Positions 3,775 to 35,177 of a stretch of DNA of 64,000 nt are shown piece by piece (the stretch's first letter is position 1; each line of letters begins with the position of its first letter). A program made the translations under genes and the position numbers. Below the pieces are notes generated by a model. The model made no database searches. It saw only the letters and a program-made list of their open reading frames with translations, and was not told the DNA's origin. Origin of the DNA: Paracoccaceae bacterium (lineage in GTDB: Bacteria > Pseudomonadota > Alphaproteobacteria > Rhodobacterales > Rhodobacteraceae). The DNA lies in the NCBI GenBank assembly GCA_002709405.1, contig PAQV01000056.1:1-64000 (forward strand), in the 5' to 3' direction.

Positions 3775-3979
3775 CGGGGGAGTTCCTTTCCGCACACTGT
3801 CTGCCCCGGTGTCGGGGATCGGCCGCCAAGTTGCAAGCCATCCGCCCGCATCCCCCATGTGCCAAAAGGTTCCCGCAAAACCCTGATCATCAGCGCACAG
3901 GCCCCTGCGCGGATCGGGCCATTGCCCTGGCCCGCAAACGTTTACACCTACAGGGAAACGACCAGAAAGGACCCTCCCC

Positions 3980-4930: not shown

Positions 4931-5008
4931 ATATCCTAACGAATGGTAAATCTGCCGCTGCAAGTGCTTGAAATCATTGCAGCGGCCCTCTGTCCCACGC
5001 GTGGGACA
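4931..5008. repeat. 78-bp intergenic repeat ending in an 18-bp palindrome (copy 1)
   Basis: The first of two copies. It begins at ATATCCTAAC and ends in the perfect palindrome TGTCCCACGCGTGGGACA at 4991-5008. By hand alignment it matches the copy at 32084-32161 without gaps at 56 of 78 positions, including all 18 palindrome bases. This copy also has an internal 9-bp inverted repeat, CCGCTGCAA/TTGCAGCGG. It lies two bases beyond the stop codon of the minus-strand amidohydrolase gene. Confidence 0.8.
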
Positions 5009-5010
5009 GG

Positions 5011-6450
5011 TTACTCGGCAGCCATCGCCTTGACCGGCGGAACCGCCTCGGCGGTCAGCGGGCAGATATAGCCCTCGGCCCCGCCCCGCGCCCGCAGATC
5101 GGCCCAGGCCCTTGCCCGCAGGTCGGCGTCCAGCAGGGCATCCACCCCGGTCATGGCCATCACCTGGGCGGCATGGATCATCCCCTTGGCGGCCGGCCCG
5201 CTCTTGCCCTGGGCGGTCATCTGCCAGGAATGCAGCTGGGTCCCGATGGCCGAGGTCGCATCCATCAGCTGGACGGTCGGCACCACCCAGGACACGTCGG
5301 CCACGTCGGTCGACCCGCCGAGCGGCATGGCCGGGGCATCGGCGGGCGGGATGAAATCGGCCAGCACCTTGCCGGGCTTTGGGGCCAGCCCCGCCGAGCG
5401 GTAGGCGTCGGCAATATCCTCGGGGCTAAGCGTCGCCTGGAAGCCCGCCGCGTAGGTCTCGTCCTCGGCATCGAAGGGCACCGGGCCCAGGGTCTCCAGG
5501 TTGCGGTACATCGCCTCGTAAAGGGGCGTGTTGGGCAGCAGGTTCGACACCGCGGCCAGGACCTCCTGGGTGACGCGCGTCTCGGTCATCAGGGCCGCGC
5601 CCTGCGCCACCTTGCCGACCCGGTCCAGCAGGCCCAGCATCTCGGGCACGGTGTCCGAGCGGACCACGTAGCGCACCTTGGCCCGGGCCTGCACCACGTT
5701 GGGGGAAATCCCGCCCCCGTCGATGATCGCGTAATGGATGCGCGCCGAATCCGGCATGTGTTCGCGCAGGTAGTTCACCCCGATGTTCATCAGCTCCATC
5801 GCGTCCAGGGCCGACCGGCCCAGGTGCGGCGCCCCGGCCGCATGGGCGGCCCGGCCCTCGAAGGTGAAATCGACCCGCGTGTTGGCCAGCGACGATCCCT
5901 TCAGGATGATCGGCAGCGAGTTGGGATGCCAGGTGATGGCGATGTCCACGTCCGAGAACAGCCCGTCGCGCACCATGAAGGTCTTGCCCGCCCCGCCCTC
6001 TTCGGCCGGGCATCCATAATAGCGCACGGTCCCCGGCGTGCCGGTCTGCTGCAGCCAGTCGCGCAGGGCCACCGCCGCCAGCATCGAGGCCGAGCCCAGC
6101 AGGTTGTGTCCGCAGCCATGGCCATTGGCCCCGTCGGCCACCGGGCTGGGCTCGGCCAGGTCGGCCTGCTGGCTGAGCCCGGCCAGGGCGTCGAATTCGC
6201 CGAGGAAGGCAATGACCGGCCCGCCCGCGCCCGCCTCGCCGATGACGGCGGTGGGGATGCCGGCGGGGTTCTCGGTGACCTCGAAGCCCTGGGCGCGCAG
6301 CTCGTCGGCATGGGCGGCGACGGATTGGCGCTCGGCATAGCAGGTTTCGGGCGTGGCCCAGACCCGGTGCGACAGGTCCACCAGCCGCGGGGCGGCCGCT
6401 TCGACCAGGGGCCAGATCGGATGGGCATTCGTGGACGGCGCGTCGGACAT
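5011..6450 (-). CDS. M20-family amidohydrolase (AbgB-like)
   Basis: A 479-residue zinc-dependent amidohydrolase of the M20 family, closest in layout to p-aminobenzoyl-glutamate hydrolase subunit B. It has the metal motif GHGCGHN at 110-116 and the catalytic/metal CPAEEGG near 147-153, then a lid/dimerisation domain and a C-terminal return to the catalytic fold. Such enzymes cleave amide bonds of acylated or aroylated amino acids; the exact substrate is unknown. The ATG at 6450 is preceded by AAGGAAG at good spacing. It lies downstream of rarD on the same strand with a 110-base gap; no AbgA or AbgT partner is adjacent. Confidence 0.85.
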   Translation of the reverse strand: MSDAPSTNAHPIWPLVEAAAPRLVDLSHRVWATPETCYAERQSVAAHADELRAQGFEVTENPAGIPTAVIGEAGAGGPVIAFLGEFDALAGLSQQADLAEPSPVADGANGHGCGHNLLGSASMLAAVALRDWLQQTGTPGTVRYYGCPAEEGGAGKTFMVRDGLFSDVDIAITWHPNSLPIILKGSSLANTRVDFTFEGRAAHAAGAPHLGRSALDAMELMNIGVNYLREHMPDSARIHYAIIDGGGISPNVVQARAKVRYVVRSDTVPEMLGLLDRVGKVAQGAALMTETRVTQEVLAAVSNLLPNTPLYEAMYRNLETLGPVPFDAEDETYAAGFQATLSPEDIADAYRSAGLAPKPGKVLADFIPPADAPAMPLGGSTDVADVSWVVPTVQLMDATSAIGTQLHSWQMTAQGKSGPAAKGMIHAAQVMAMTGVDALLDADLRARAWADLRARGGAEGYICPLTAEAVPPVKAMAAE

Positions 6451-7499: not shown

Positions 7500-9931
7500 G
7501 CCCGGACCCGAAGCGATTGCGGGTCGTAGAAGGGTTTCATCGACGCCCGCGCGGCCACCCGGGTCCCCGCCACGTCGATCTGGTAGTCCGAAGCAAGCAC
7601 CGCCTCGGCCGGTTCACCCCGGCAGGGCACGTAGCCCATGCCCACGGCGCATCCCAGGTGGTGCCCGAAGGCGCCCGAGGTCAGGTGGCCGACGATCTCG
7701 CCATCCCGCAGGATGGGCTCGTTGTGATACAGCAGCGGCTCGGGGTCGGTCAGGCAGAACTGCACCAGCCGCCGGTCAAGGCCGCGGTCCTTCTTGTCCA
7801 GCACCGCCTCGCGCCCGATGAAATCGGGTTTGGCGGTCTTCACCGCAAAGCCCAGGCCCGCCTCCAGCACGTGATCTTCGGGGGTGATGTCATGGCCGAA
7901 ATGGCGGAACCCCTTTTCGGCCCGGGCGCAATCCATCATGTGCAGCCCGCAAAGCCGCAGGCCCATATCCGCCCCGGCCTCGGCCAGGGTGTCAAAGGCA
8001 TGGGCGGCCATGTCGGCGGACACGTAGATCTCCCAGCCCAGCTCGCCCACGTAGGACACACGATGCACGCGGGCCAGGCCCAGGCCCAGTTCGACCTGAC
8101 GTGCGGTGCCAAAGGGATTGGCCGCGTTCGAGAAATCGTCCGGAGACACCGCCTGCATCAGCTTGCGCGCATCAGGGCCCATCACGGCCAGCACGCCCTC
8201 GGCCGCGGTCATGTCGGCGATCACGACGCGCGCCTCGCCCAGGTGGCGGCGCAGGCGGGTTTCGTCGGCCAGCCGGGTGGCCGCGGGCGTGACCACCAGG
8301 TATGCGGTTTCGGACAGGCGGGTGACGGTGACGTCCGCCTCGATCCCGCCGGCGGCGTTCAGCATCTGGGTATAGACGATCTTGCCCACCGGCACGTCCA
8401 TCTCGGCCCCGCACAGGCGGTTCAGGAAACCCGGGGCATCCGGCCCCTCGACCCGCAGCTTGCCGAAGGACGACATGTCGTAAAGCCCGACGCCCGTGCG
8501 CACGGCGCGCAACTCCTCGGCCACGTTGTCGAAGAAAGGCTGGCGGCCCCAGCTGTAGCGGTATTCGGCCGGCTGACCGGGCCGGGCGAACCAGTTGGCC
8601 CGCTCCCAGCCGGCGAGTTCGCCAAAGACCGCGCCTCGTTCGGCAAGCTGGGCATGGAACGGGCTGCGCCGGATGCCCCGGGCGGTGGCCTTCTGGCGGA
8701 ACGGGAAATGGTCGGCGTAAAGCAGGCCCAGGGTTTCCGTGGCCCGCGCACGCAGGTAGCGCCGGTTGCCCTGGAACTGTTCCATCCGCGCGATGTCCAC
8801 GTCGCCCAGGTCAAAGGGTTTCTCTCCGCTCTCCATCCACTGGGCCAGGGCCATCCCGGCCCCGCCGGCCGACTGGATGCCGATCGAGTTGAACCCGGCG
8901 GCCACCCAGACATTGTCCATCTCGGGGGCCAGGCCAAGGTGGTAGGCATCATCGGGGGTAAAGCTTTCGGGACCGTTGAAGAACGTGTGGATCCCGGCCT
9001 CGGCCAGCATGGGCATGCGGTGGATGGCCTGCTCCAGGATCGGTTCGAAATGGTCGACATCCTCCGGCAGCTGGTCGAACTCGAAATCCGGGCGGGGCGG
9101 GCCCCAGGGCTTGGCCACGGGTTCAAAGGCGCCCAGCAGGATCTTGCCCGCGTCTTCCTTGTAATAGGCGCATTCGTCCGGCACCCGCAGGACCGGCAGG
9201 CTGGACAGGCCGGGGATGGGCTCGGTGACGATGTAGAAGTGCTCGCAGGCCTGCAGAGGCACGTTGATGCCGGCCATGCGCCCCACCTCGTGGCCCCAGA
9301 GCCCGGCGCAATTGACGACCATGTCGCAGGTGATGCGTTGTGGTCCGTCGGCGGTGTCCACCTCGACCGCGCGCACCCGGCGGCCGGTCCGGACCATGCC
9401 CGAGACCCGCGCGCCTTCGGCAATCACCGCCCCCCGCGACCGGGCGCCCCGGGCCAGGGCCAGGGCGATATTGGCCGGATCCCCCTGCCCGTCCTTCGGT
9501 AGCCAGACCCCGCCGGTCACCCCGTCCAGGTTCAGGTGCGGATAGCGCGCGCCAATCTCGGACGGCGCAATCTCCTCCACCTCGACACCGAAGGCCCGGG
9601 CCATGGCCGCCGTGCGGCGCAGCTCTTCAAGGCGCTCCCCGGTCAAGGCGGCAGTGATCGATCCGACCCGCTTGAACCCGGTGGCCAGTCCGGTTTCCGC
9701 CTCCAGCCGCCCGTAAAGTTCCTGGCTGTACTTCGCCAGCCGCGTCATGTTGGCCGAGGACCTCAACTGCGCGATCAGCCCGGCCGCATGCCAGGTGGTT
9801 CCGGACGTCAGCCGCTTGCGTTCCAGCAGCACGACATCCGTCCAGCCAAGCTGGGTCAGGTGGTAGGCTACGGAACAACCGATGACGCCGCCCCCGATGA
9901 CGACGACACGCGCGTGAGACGGCAGGTTCAT
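7496..9931 (-). CDS. FAD/GcvT-type N-methyl amine oxidoreductase (dimethylglycine/sarcosine dehydrogenase-like), copy 1
   Basis: An 811-residue two-part enzyme. Residues 1-370 are a DAO-type FAD domain with the dinucleotide motif VVIGGGVIG near residues 10-18 and TTWHAAGL near 46-53, where the His of dimethylglycine dehydrogenase carries covalent FAD. Residues about 430-811 are a GcvT/aminomethyltransferase domain that in this family binds tetrahydrofolate and accepts the released one-carbon unit. The predicted reaction is oxidative N-demethylation of a compound such as dimethylglycine or sarcosine. ATG at 9931 is chosen because AGAGGT precedes it. The stop overlaps the rarD start. A paralogue lies directly upstream. 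Confidence 0.85.
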   Translation of the reverse strand: MNLPSHARVVVIGGGVIGCSVAYHLTQLGWTDVVLLERKRLTSGTTWHAAGLIAQLRSSANMTRLAKYSQELYGRLEAETGLATGFKRVGSITAALTGERLEELRRTAAMARAFGVEVEEIAPSEIGARYPHLNLDGVTGGVWLPKDGQGDPANIALALARGARSRGAVIAEGARVSGMVRTGRRVRAVEVDTADGPQRITCDMVVNCAGLWGHEVGRMAGINVPLQACEHFYIVTEPIPGLSSLPVLRVPDECAYYKEDAGKILLGAFEPVAKPWGPPRPDFEFDQLPEDVDHFEPILEQAIHRMPMLAEAGIHTFFNGPESFTPDDAYHLGLAPEMDNVWVAAGFNSIGIQSAGGAGMALAQWMESGEKPFDLGDVDIARMEQFQGNRRYLRARATETLGLLYADHFPFRQKATARGIRRSPFHAQLAERGAVFGELAGWERANWFARPGQPAEYRYSWGRQPFFDNVAEELRAVRTGVGLYDMSSFGKLRVEGPDAPGFLNRLCGAEMDVPVGKIVYTQMLNAAGGIEADVTVTRLSETAYLVVTPAATRLADETRLRRHLGEARVVIADMTAAEGVLAVMGPDARKLMQAVSPDDFSNAANPFGTARQVELGLGLARVHRVSYVGELGWEIYVSADMAAHAFDTLAEAGADMGLRLCGLHMMDCARAEKGFRHFGHDITPEDHVLEAGLGFAVKTAKPDFIGREAVLDKKDRGLDRRLVQFCLTDPEPLLYHNEPILRDGEIVGHLTSGAFGHHLGCAVGMGYVPCRGEPAEAVLASDYQIDVAGTRVAARASMKPFYDPQSLRVRA

Positions 9932-31837: not shown

Positions 31838-32183
31838 CGTGTCACCTCTCACCCTATGCACCTGTCACCTACCGCCGCGAACCGACTGGACCTCATCCTT
31901 TCAGGCGCAGGGTCGCGGGGCGGGCGGAAGCTGCTCACCCGATACCCCCGCCCCCAAAACCGCGAAACAACCGGGGCCTGTCCCCTCGGTCACCAAGGGC
32001 AGCGCGGGTGCGCGGGGTGGGTGGGCGGGAGCGCTCCCGCGCTGCCCGGCCCGCCACACCGCGCACCCACCAGGCAAACGCCGATACCCTAACAAGACGT
32101 AAATCCGCCCCTGTAACCCATTGGAATCCCTCACCCGGCGCGATGTCCCACGCGTGGGACATCCGCGGGGTCACAGGTCGGCG
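31838..32183. other. Intergenic region between GNAT and exonuclease III genes
   Basis: About 346 bases with no credible gene. It holds the GNAT leader on the minus strand at its left end, a Cys/Pro-biased GC-rich middle, and the second copy of the palindrome repeat at its right end (32084-32162). Confidence 0.6.
32084..32162. repeat. 78-bp intergenic repeat with palindrome (copy 2)
   Basis: Begins ATACCCTAAC and ends in ATGTCCCACGCGTGGGACAT, here a perfect 20-bp palindrome at 32143-32162. It has the same spacing as copy 1 (60 bases from the start of the conserved part to the palindrome). It lies 22 bases beyond the exonuclease III stop on the minus strand. Confidence 0.8.
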
Positions 32184-32972
32184 TCACAGGTCGAAGGTCG
32201 CAAAAACCGGCACGTGATCCGAAGGCTTTTCCCACCCCCGAACGGCCCGCAGGATCCGGCTGGAATGGCCCGCATTCGAAATGTCCGGAGTCGCCCAGAC
32301 ATGATCCAGCCGCCGCCCCTTGTCCGCCGCATCCCAGTCCGGAGACCGGTAGGACCACCACGAATAGAGGTTCCCCTCGGGCAGATCCTGCCGGGTGATG
32401 TCCACCCATTTGCCGGCCTCCTGGGTCTCGGCCAGGTGCTCAACCTCGATCGGCGTGTGGCTGACCACCTTCAGCAACTGCTTGTGATTCCACACGTCAT
32501 CCTTGCGCGGGGCAATGTTCAGATCGCCCACCAGGATCGCCTTCTCGGGCGTCTCCGCGCGGAACCAGTCCCGCATGTCGGTCAGGTAGTCCAGCTTCTG
32601 CCCGAATTTCTCGTTCACCTCGCGGTCCGGCTTGTCGCCCCCCGCCGGCACGTAGAAATTGTGGATCGTCACCCCGTTTTCCAGCCGCGCCGCGATGTGG
32701 CGGGCATGGCCGAGCCCGGCGAAATCCTTGTCGCCCGCCTCTTCGATCGGCAGCTTCGACAGGATCGCAACCCCGTTATAGCCCTTCTCTCCCCGCGCCA
32801 CCATGTGGGTGTACCCCAGAGCCTCGAACAGCCCCACCGGGATCTTCTCGACCGGGGACTTGCATTCCTGCAGGCACAGCACGTCGGGCGCCTCGTCCCG
32901 CATCAGCTGCGTGACCAGGCCCGCGCGCAGGCGGACCGAATTGATGTTCCAGGTGGCGATGGTGAAAGGCAT
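32184..32972 (-). CDS. xth: Exonuclease III family AP endonuclease
   Basis: A 262-residue exodeoxyribonuclease III, which nicks DNA at abasic sites and degrades 3' ends. Motifs in order: TWNINSVR (7-14), LQECK (34-38), the VGDLNIAP loop near residue 150, and the closing SDHVPV near 253-258. The length is typical. ATG at 32972; the longer open frame upstream is not conserved-looking. Confidence 0.93.
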   Translation of the reverse strand: MPFTIATWNINSVRLRAGLVTQLMRDEAPDVLCLQECKSPVEKIPVGLFEALGYTHMVARGEKGYNGVAILSKLPIEEAGDKDFAGLGHARHIAARLENGVTIHNFYVPAGGDKPDREVNEKFGQKLDYLTDMRDWFRAETPEKAILVGDLNIAPRKDDVWNHKQLLKVVSHTPIEVEHLAETQEAGKWVDITRQDLPEGNLYSWWSYRSPDWDAADKGRRLDHVWATPDISNAGHSSRILRAVRGWEKPSDHVPVFATFDL

Positions 32973-33112: not shown

Positions 33113-33139
33113 AAAAAAGGCCGGGCACTAAGCCCGGCC
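33113..33139 (-). terminator. Intrinsic terminator of the response-regulator gene
   Basis: On the minus strand GGCCGGGC, loop TTAGT, GCCCGGCC is followed directly by TTTTTT (33113-33118). A classical rho-independent terminator about 100 bases past the regulator's stop. Confidence 0.88.
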
Positions 33140-33238
33140 AGGTCCAACAGGGAGGTACATGCCAATACCCGGGCATGCGCGGGTTCCCTATAAATTACAC
33201 TAAAATTGCTACCAATTCCTTAATCAATACGTAGCACT

Positions 33239-33925
33239 TTAGGCGACAAGGCGATATCCACCACTTTCTGTGACCAAAAGGCGCGCATTTGACGGATCCG
33301 GCTCAATTTTCTGGCGCAACCTGTAGATGTGCGTTTCCAGCGTATGTGTCGTCACACCTGCATTATATCCCCAGACCTCGTGCAGCAGCACGTCGCGGGC
33401 CACCACGCCGTCGGTCGAGCGATAGAGGAACTTGAGGATATTGGTCTCTTTCTCGGTCAGGCGAATCTTGCGGTCGTCCTCGGTGATCAGCAGCTTCATC
33501 GAGGGCTTGAACGTGTAGGGCCCAAGCTGGAAAACCGCGTCTTCGGATTGCTCGTGCTGGCGCAGCTGGGCGCGGATCCGGGCCAGCAGCACCGGGAACT
33601 TGAACGGTTTGGTCACGTAGTCATTCGCGCCTGCGTCCAGGCCAAGGATCGTATCGGCATCGCTGTCATGTCCGGTCAGCATCAGGATCGGCGCCTTGAC
33701 CCCCTGCTTGCGCATCAGGCGGCACAATTCGCGCCCGTCGGTGTCCGGCAGCCCCACATCAAGAATGATCAGGTCGTACAGGGCCTCTTTCGCGCGTTCC
33801 ATCGCGCTGTGACCGTCGCCGGCCTCGAAGACGTCGAAATCCTCGGTCATGACCAGCTGCTCGCTCAGCGCGTCGCGCAGGTCGTCGTCATCGTCCACGA
33901 GCAGAATTTTCTTCAGCTGAGCCAT
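33239..33925 (-). CDS. OmpR/PhoB-family response regulator
   Basis: A 228-residue two-domain regulator. Receiver: acidic pocket DDDDD at 11-15, phospho-acceptor Asp56 (LILDVG), Thr84 and Lys106. DNA-binding winged helix at about 132-228 (LTEKETNILKFL, LETHIYRLRQKI). The first residues, MAQLKKILLVDDD, recall the essential CenR-type regulator of Rhodobacter, but that name is not certain. No histidine kinase gene is adjacent, so it is an orphan here. ATG at 33925 chosen. Confidence 0.9.
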   Translation of the reverse strand: MAQLKKILLVDDDDDLRDALSEQLVMTEDFDVFEAGDGHSAMERAKEALYDLIILDVGLPDTDGRELCRLMRKQGVKAPILMLTGHDSDADTILGLDAGANDYVTKPFKFPVLLARIRAQLRQHEQSEDAVFQLGPYTFKPSMKLLITEDDRKIRLTEKETNILKFLYRSTDGVVARDVLLHEVWGYNAGVTTHTLETHIYRLRQKIEPDPSNARLLVTESGGYRLVA

Positions 33926-34088
33926 GATGTGTTCTCCTGTTTGATACCCAGATGGAAGCCCTTGGCAGCAGGGCAAGATTTCCTGCAAAGGCCTCACGCC
34001 GTCGTGTGCACTGCGTGGGTTTTGTTTCACTTCCGTTGCATTATGGCGTAGCTGAAAGCGCGAAATCAGATCTGCTTGGTGGCTCGCC

Positions 34089-35177
34089 TTGACCCTATCA
34101 CTCTCCATGCCCGAACGACTGGCCCGCGCGCGGGCCGACATGCGGATGGGCGTGCCGGTGGTCATGCACCACCAGGATCGGGCCGCCTTGGCCGTGCCCA
34201 CCGAAACGCTGACTTCCGAGCGGTTGGCGGAATTGCGGGCCATGGGCGAGGCGGTCGTGGCCGTCACCGACCGGCGGGCTGAAACGCTTAAGGCCCGGGC
34301 CTATGACGGGGACGTGGCGCGCGTGGCCCTGCCCCGGGATGCCGATCTTAACTGGGTGCAGGCGGTGGCCGATCCGGCAGACGACCTGCGGGTGCCGATG
34401 AAGGGCCCGCTGACGACGCTGAGGCGCGGAGCGGCGGATCTGCACCGGGCGGCCTTGCAACTGGCGAAGTCGGCGCGGCTTTTGCCCGCCTGCCTGATGG
34501 TCCCGGTCGAAGACGGCCCGGCCCTGGCCCAACAGGCCGGCCTGACGCTGATCGACCTGGCCGAGGCACGGGGTCACCTCGGGTTCAGCTCTCCGGTGCA
34601 TGATATTGTCAGCGCGCGCCTGCCGATGGAGGTCTCGGAGGCCGGCCGCCTGCATGTCTTCCGGCCCGAGGACGGGGGAGAGGAACATTATGCCATCGAG
34701 ATCGGCCGCCCCGACCGGGCCAAACCGGTGCTGGCGCGGCTGCATTCGGCCTGTTTCACGGGCGACCTGATGGGATCGCTGAAATGCGATTGCGGGCCGC
34801 AGCTGCGCGGGGCGCTGGCGATGATGGGGGACGAGGGCGAAGGCGTTCTGCTGTACCTCAACCAGGAGGGGCGCGGCATCGGGCTGGCCAACAAGATGCG
34901 GGCCTATTCCCTGCAGGATCAGGGCTTTGACACGGTCGAGGCCAACCACCGGCTGGGCTTTGAAGACGACGAGCGCGACTTTCGGCTGGGGGCCGAGATC
35001 CTGAAAGAGCTTGGCTTTTCCGCCGTCCGGCTGCTGACGAACAATCCCGGCAAGATCGCGATGATGGAAAAGGCCGGGGTTGCGGTGACGGAACGTGTGC
35101 CCCTGAAGGTCGGCGAAACGGCGCATAACAGGGCCTACCTGGAGACCAAGGCGGCCAAATCGGGCCACATGCTGTGA
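34089..35177 (+). CDS. ribA: GTP cyclohydrolase II
   Basis: A 362-residue riboflavin-synthesis enzyme. The C-terminal half (about 170-362) is GTP cyclohydrolase II: zinc ligands Cys222, Cys233 and Cys235 (CFTGD ... KCDCG), then NQEGRGIGL and LLTNNPGK. The N-terminal 165 residues resemble a degenerate DHBP-synthase (RibB) domain without its acidic metal motif and are probably structural. Start at TTG 34089 is taken because GGTGG lies six bases before it; ATG 34107 has no such site. It overlaps the next gene by four bases. Confidence 0.9.
   Translation: MTLSLSMPERLARARADMRMGVPVVMHHQDRAALAVPTETLTSERLAELRAMGEAVVAVTDRRAETLKARAYDGDVARVALPRDADLNWVQAVADPADDLRVPMKGPLTTLRRGAADLHRAALQLAKSARLLPACLMVPVEDGPALAQQAGLTLIDLAEARGHLGFSSPVHDIVSARLPMEVSEAGRLHVFRPEDGGEEHYAIEIGRPDRAKPVLARLHSACFTGDLMGSLKCDCGPQLRGALAMMGDEGEGVLLYLNQEGRGIGLANKMRAYSLQDQGFDTVEANHRLGFEDDERDFRLGAEILKELGFSAVRLLTNNPGKIAMMEKAGVAVTERVPLKVGETAHNRAYLETKAAKSGHML

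Follow-up and report, generated by a model that had tools for sequence, protein, structure and literature searches.

The closest described counterparts of the element treated here are the RIB-type IHF-binding elements of Escherichia coli, on which Boccard and Prentki reportedly worked in 1993. The copy number of RIB/BIME-1 elements in E. coli is of the same order as that of the element that we describe in Marinibacterium. A comparable arrangement around an IHF bend is found in the P1 parS partition site, which has ParB boxes on both sides of the bend. BIME-1, in the part of the source that concerns it, is made of two opposite REPs separated by an inter-REP sequence that interacts with IHF (PMC2817692). 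CtrA full sites, which have the form TTAA-N7-TTAA, are described in the relevant excerpt as usually lying at promoters (PMC6180460).

Judged by its sequence, the Marinibacterium element appears to resemble E. coli RIB, RIP and BIME-1 in being repeated, extragenic and placed at gene 3′ ends, and in joining a palindrome to an IHF-like site. Where RIB/BIME-1 has two opposed REP hairpins flanking the IHF site, it has a single perfect 18-bp palindrome to one side of that site and a CtrA-like box to the other, and no GTAG-type head was seen. No RAYT gene accompanies it, its sequence is unrelated, and the palindrome of another genus is a different one. Because it has one palindrome and not two REPs, no RAYT and a CtrA-like box, we do not file it as a member of RIB/BIME-1. 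It is neither a gene, nor an RNA, nor an active transposon; on balance, and with some reserve, we take it to be an IHF-bent extragenic nucleoprotein site that probably marks the ends of transcription units, RIB/BIME-1-like in its working and unrelated in sequence.

The window, that is, the whole stretch of 64,000 nucleotides analysed, belongs to a genome of 5.39 Mb in 103 contigs (G000) and contains two copies. An earlier note had located them at 4931-5008 and 32084-32161, with 56 of 78 positions identical, just 3′ of minus-strand genes; positions, identity and gene context are all correct, the two ORFs ending at 5011 and 32184. Outside the palindrome, 38 of 60 positions agree between the copies, compared with a mean of 16.8 (SD 3.7) for random 60-mer pairs from the window, none of 20,000 of which reached 38. 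The palindrome, TGTCCCACGCGTGGGACA, has two occurrences in the window at up to three mismatches, and shuffles average 0.04.

Sites in both copies were read at fixed windows relative to the palindrome, using as the yardstick for IHF-like windows what we take to be the IHF consensus, WATCAANNNNTTR. Copy 1 has a CtrA-like full site, CTAA-N7-TAAA, at 4936..4950 (plus strand, window -55), an IHF-like site, CAAGTGCTTGAAA, at 4961..4973 (minus strand, window -30), and the 18-bp palindrome, to which no strand is assigned, at 4991..5008. It abuts the 3′ end of a called M20-family amidohydrolase gene (5011..6450, minus strand; Pfam PF01546 and PF07687), the palindrome being 2 bp from the stop codon. Copy 2 has the same CtrA-like full site, CTAA-N7-TAAA, at 32089..32103 (plus strand, window -55), the IHF-like site TAACCCATTGGAA at 32114..32126 (minus strand, window -30) and, by sequence match, the strandless palindrome at 32144..32161; the 3′ end of a called exonuclease III-like gene (32184..32972, minus strand; PF03372) lies 22 bp from it. 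An inverted repeat, GCCGCTGCAA..TTGCAGCGGC, spans the IHF-like site of copy 1 at 4955-4987 and is kept in the corresponding copy of the congeneric strain La 6 (G150), and it is not general among the aligned congeneric copies. Beyond copy 2, Rfam matches the SorX small RNA (RF02784; 90.6 bits, E 3.3e-21) at 33113-33185 on the minus strand; an OmpR-type regulator ORF (33239-34267, minus strand) lies on one side of it and the exonuclease III gene on the other.

The genome as a whole harbours ~50 copies of ~80 bases each. Its exact 18-mers number 44, and at up to three mismatches TGTCCCACGCGTGGGACA is found at 52 places, compared with 15 for a reversed control pattern; the copy set used below comprises the 50 listed places with 0 or 1 palindrome mismatch. 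In all 50, the same ordered flank is present on one side only (25-40 of 41 positions on the best side, 14-19 on the other), and reading towards the palindrome a CtrA-like box (TTAA-N7-TTAA) is followed in it by a CGCC-n-CTG linker and then by the IHF-like site. When a 45-bp model of the flank alone was run over the genome, 51 matches reached at least 27 bits and the next fell to 12 bits; 50 of them were the palindromes already fetched, and the 51st, on contig 83, lies beside a one-mismatch palindrome. Because all 51 clear matches adjoin a palindrome, flank and palindrome form one unit, and the idea that the palindrome often occurs without the flank, which would make the flank match chance, fails in this genome. 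Chance palindromes without the flank do occur in unrelated bacteria, Streptomyces, Kitasatospora and Sphingobium among them. The conserved spacing proposed earlier is near-fixed rather than strictly fixed, since 39 copies have 15 bp between flank core and palindrome and the other 11 have 14 bp.

Adding the copies of Marinibacterium profundimaris 22II1-22F33 (G149) and of strain La 6 gave a congeneric set of 142 (50 + 64 + 29 gathered, less one M. profundimaris copy with 16-bp spacing), of which 115 have the 15-bp and 27 the 14-bp spacing. The palindrome is identical in 135 of the 142, and would be of the right size for a site of a dimeric DNA-binding protein; mean core identity among copies of one genome is 0.68. 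The 27 copies with 14-bp spacing (e.g. L004, L010, L034 and L039) have CCGAAAA ahead of the palindrome in common, and spacing may vary between species at one and the same site.

In the 115 aligned 15-bp-spacing copies, at windows chosen after inspecting the Marinibacterium copies, the IHF-like window scores on average 8.54 of 9 and is perfect in 70, compared with 2.17 for random 13-mers; the site lies about 32.5 bp from the palindrome centre. The CtrA-like window, chosen in the same way, agrees with at least six of the eight positions of TTAA-N7-TTAA in 110 of the 115 (background 0.13%) and perfectly in three. This left box thus looks like a CtrA full site held at a fixed place, and it is unlike the usual ones in lying mostly at gene ends and in being absent from the elements of another genus (G003, below). 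None of 2,820 column pairs of the 115 aligned flanks covaried above expectation (largest z 3.4), which therefore favours DNA-protein contact over RNA structure. Rfam has no family match at either window copy, and a structured RNA or riboswitch was rejected on this and on the absent covariation.

The position of the copies relative to genes, as called by our own hexamer-based caller, bears on two further readings. The statement that copies lie 3′ of genes holds for 40 of the 50 on the palindrome side and does not for the other 10, where a gene start is found there. In 31 of the 50, a gene 3′ end is within 35 bp (0-34 bp after the stop). On the left side, there are 26 gene 3′ ends, 17 starts and seven uncalled neighbours. 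The gaps that hold an element are convergent in 19 cases, tandem in 23 and divergent in one, compared with 41, 130 and 69 among element-free gaps of the genus (p 1e-5), an enrichment in convergent gaps; in M. profundimaris, the corresponding element gaps number 33, 24 and two (p 4e-10). Two CoA-ligase alpha-subunit paralogues of G000, L017 and L043, each end at an element.

The proximity to stop codons is what would be expected if the palindrome were a transcription terminator or an mRNA-protecting 3′ hairpin with an incidental flank. As RNA, the palindrome gives a hairpin with a stem of 7 bp and a CGCG loop (-9.4 kcal/mol), and in 21 of the 27 copies with 14-bp spacing the six nucleotides after the hairpin on the gene strand include at least four T; such a T-run is found in only seven of the 115 with 15-bp spacing, however, and a terminator scan around copy 1 found none. 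A terminator needs neither an invariant stem sequence nor a near-fixed flank of 41 bp, that flank is without covariation, and the 10 gene starts on the palindrome side do not suit it. Termination may be a role of the 14-bp subtype, though not of most copies; as an account of the element as a whole, we find this reading unlikely.

The element might instead be an operator or promoter that serves a regulon under CtrA/IHF control, or unseen small RNAs whose start lies inside it. CtrA-like and IHF-like sites are features of alphaproteobacterial promoters, and gene starts make up 17 of the 43 called left neighbours, but the other 26 are gene 3′ ends. Of the 50 palindrome-side proteins, 40 were scanned; they are of mixed housekeeping kinds (39 with Pfam matches) and share no theme, so that a regulon defined by neighbour function was rejected for these 40. 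Around copy 1 there is no sigma-70-like promoter, and the absence of an Rfam family at either window copy also speaks against small RNAs. We regard an operator or promoter as improbable, and return to a nucleoprotein site at transcription-unit ends as the preferred reading.

Comparison with the two congeners indicates how the copies have fared over time. The flank model matched 78 places in M. profundimaris (E no greater than 1, lowest score 14 bits) and 74 in strain La 6. From a sample of 64 M. profundimaris copies and about 30 of the 74 in strain La 6, at least 35 of the 50 G000 copies adjoin an orthologous gene in one or the other; L043 was left out of the 35, being a paralogue whose M. profundimaris counterpart is the element that L017 also matches. 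The 26 and 14 pairs compared at shared sites have core identities of 0.70 and 0.80, respectively, against 0.68 between unrelated copies, and ungapped left-flank identity is 0.33 (26-29 pairs) and 0.29 (14 pairs), which is background (0.28 for unrelated copies). Twenty of the 26 pairs and eight of the 14 agree in spacing. The elements look maintained at their positions, because the element is kept beside the same gene while the neighbouring intergenic DNA no longer aligns. Both window genes have orthologues in strain La 6 that also end at an element (each 88% identical), copy 2 thus being common to that strain; the M. profundimaris orthologue of the amidohydrolase (87% identical) has no element at its end, and copy 1 is absent there. 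Taken together, the three ordered sites, the near-fixed spacing, the near-invariant palindrome and the retention among congeners argue for the structured unit, and putative protein-binding site, that the earlier note had suggested.

That note had also offered a short mobile repeat. A REP- or MITE-like repeat, mostly fixed by now, would fit the about 50-78 intergenic copies per genome and their patchy occurrence among genera. Moreover, three copies are reversed in the same intergenic gap between G000 and M. profundimaris (L005/L144, L007/L072 and L011/L137), and one gap examined in M. profundimaris, too diverged to align, holds no element. The element shares with REP/REPIN sequences its many extragenic palindromes and species-specific sequences, but differs from those with a RAYT in its near-invariant palindrome, its rigid one-sided flank, the positions common to several species and the absence of a Y1/RAYT transposase (Y1_Tnp, PF01797) from three of three congeneric genomes, in a search whose positive control matched five of 14 known genomes. 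The copies, moreover, differ from one another in their core while the palindrome hardly varies. Viral contigs contain no exact match to the palindrome, and a phage-borne element was accordingly rejected. A plasmid-borne one was likewise set aside: the copy-1 query of PLSDB yielded a single real relative, next to hutU on pLA6_002, a plasmid of strain La 6, and five other matches that are short and weak. The lack of a RAYT and of a viral match, and the sharing of at least 35 of the 50 positions with a congener, leave present mobility unsupported, and a mobile repeat seems to us a poor prospect as a general explanation; the three reversed copies and the one empty gap indicate that it may have moved in the past. 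Given no REP transposase, a near-invariant palindrome, a CtrA-like box and positions held across species, it seems to be selection rather than mobility that keeps the element.

Strain La 6 shows how the copies are distributed over a genome. Its 5.56-Mb chromosome has 71 and the other 1.24 Mb three of the 74, where ~13.5 would be expected by length, an under-representation on plasmids with p 3e-4 (from rounded sizes). Gaps along the chromosome have a CV of 0.95 compared with 0.98 for random placement, so that spacing is not regular, and counts per decile from the origin (6, 8, 8, 7, 10, 10, 8, 4, 6 and 4) show no significant origin or terminus bias (KS p 0.09). As the copies are neither regularly spaced nor biased in this way, there is therefore no direct support for a chromosome-wide organising role. 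Of the 71 chromosomal copies, 26 are oriented with replication (p 0.03), which is what a dependence on gene direction would produce.

These data weigh on a partition, nucleoid-occlusion or similar segregation site, with dispersed palindromes of the P1 parS or Noc kind. In favour of such a function, the element may be likened to P1 parS, with putative protein boxes around an IHF bend, in that the IHF-like site lies between the palindrome and the distal box, and a similar length; it is rare on the plasmids of strain La 6, and an extra TGGGACA-like half-site is present at -63 to -66 in six of eight analysed copies of Pararhodobacter and a RHODO2 metagenome-assembled genome (MAG). Unlike P1 parS, it is scattered over the chromosome in tens of copies, which lie at gene ends; these do not cluster at the parS-marked origin, their depletion near the terminus is non-significant, and the extra half-site is rare in Marinibacterium (none of 50 copies in G000, two of 63 in M. 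profundimaris and five of 29 in strain La 6). The element is not the ParB/parS system itself, as canonical parS exists separately in two sites, at 5.334 and 5.336 Mb, which mark the origin. We consider a segregation site very unlikely, and retain the architectural site at transcription-unit ends as the better account.

Beyond the genus, the palindrome GTCCCAYGCRTGGGAC was found in three of 248 family genomes (48 in G000, 73 in strain La 6 and 44 in G040, a member of another genus; controls 0), and this pattern did not detect the element in the other 245 of those sampled. Within two mismatches, it is present 14 times in Pararhodobacter aggregans, 10 times in a Roseicyclus MAG and 21 times in the RHODO2 MAG (controls 0, 0 and 1), with flanks that are diverged but recognizable. 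In G040, an IHF-like site lies on the plus strand at -18/-19 in eight of 20 copies and on the minus strand at -29 to -31 in five of 20, both as raw counts with no control set; the two positions are about one helical turn apart. The flank model, run over 41 genomes, matched the three congeners strongly and nine others weakly (E 0.0012 to 0.084), and the full element was not found at the inspected loci of those nine.

A second class of palindrome came from a de novo search for repeated palindromes, for which 400 kb were taken from each of G003, G013 and G018, and 200 kb from G009. G003, from another genus, has a different palindrome, ATTAAACCGGTTTAAT, at 30 places genome-wide within two mismatches (control 0). 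With one of these, ATGAAACCGGTGTAAT, dropped from the distribution test, 28 of 29 adjoin a gene 3′ end and 16 lie in convergent gaps, compared with 17 of 167 background gaps. Among the first 15 copies, seven have an IHF-like site of at least eight of nine within 60 bp, compared with 2.8% of controls; its distance to the palindrome centre is mostly 33-35 or 45-46 bp, close to the Marinibacterium distance of 32.5 bp or a helical turn beyond it. Because the Marinibacterium windows were picked after looking, only the G003 test set amounts to a prediction. In 14 unseen copies, which exclude L341, seen beforehand, and in which ATGAAACCGGTGTAAT counts as a miss, the single best site fell at the predicted offsets (33-35 or 45-47 bp) in seven; three were ties including those offsets and four were misses (chance about 0.18 each, p 0.006). 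A CtrA-like box was not found in the G003 elements (best scores 4.7, background 4.0), and this box therefore stands outside any wider architecture.

In the other genomes searched, G018 has an unrelated paired palindrome, GGAAATCGCGCGATTTCC-gtgcac-GATTTCCGCGCGGAAATC, together with a version centred on ATAT, and most of these lie next to gene 3′ ends (on contig C1, for example, L311 at 810-850, L316 at 3852-3892 and L314 at 9544-9653). The 400 kb of G013 contained canonical parS twice and no such palindrome class, and the 200 kb of G009 no repeated palindrome. The case for a wider class is based on one extra palindrome family, that of G003, and on the palindrome shared by G040, Pararhodobacter, Roseicyclus and RHODO2. 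It would be a Rhodobacteraceae architecture in which the ends of chromosomal transcription units are marked by an IHF bend, helically phased with a genus-variable palindrome that a fast-evolving, putative nucleoid protein reads, and which CtrA would link to the cell cycle in Marinibacterium; we advance this extension tentatively and think it rather doubtful.

For Marinibacterium itself, we infer from the order and phasing of the sites how the element might work. IHF would bend the middle of the element sharply and so bring the left site to the palindrome. An OmpR-type response regulator such as CtrA on the left site and a putative dimer on the palindrome could then assemble into a single complex where a transcription unit ends. 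For transcription that converges or reads through, such a complex may form a local boundary, architectural or topological in kind.

Our full-text search covered a PMC library with few subscription papers and returned no description of the element or its palindrome. The grouping of sites for several putative DNA-binding proteins suggests a chromosome landmark in Rhodobacteraceae for which no earlier description was found. The element also touches on an old open question raised by the RIB/BIME elements of E. coli, namely why dozens of palindromic, IHF-linked elements persist at gene ends, and the element described here makes that question testable.
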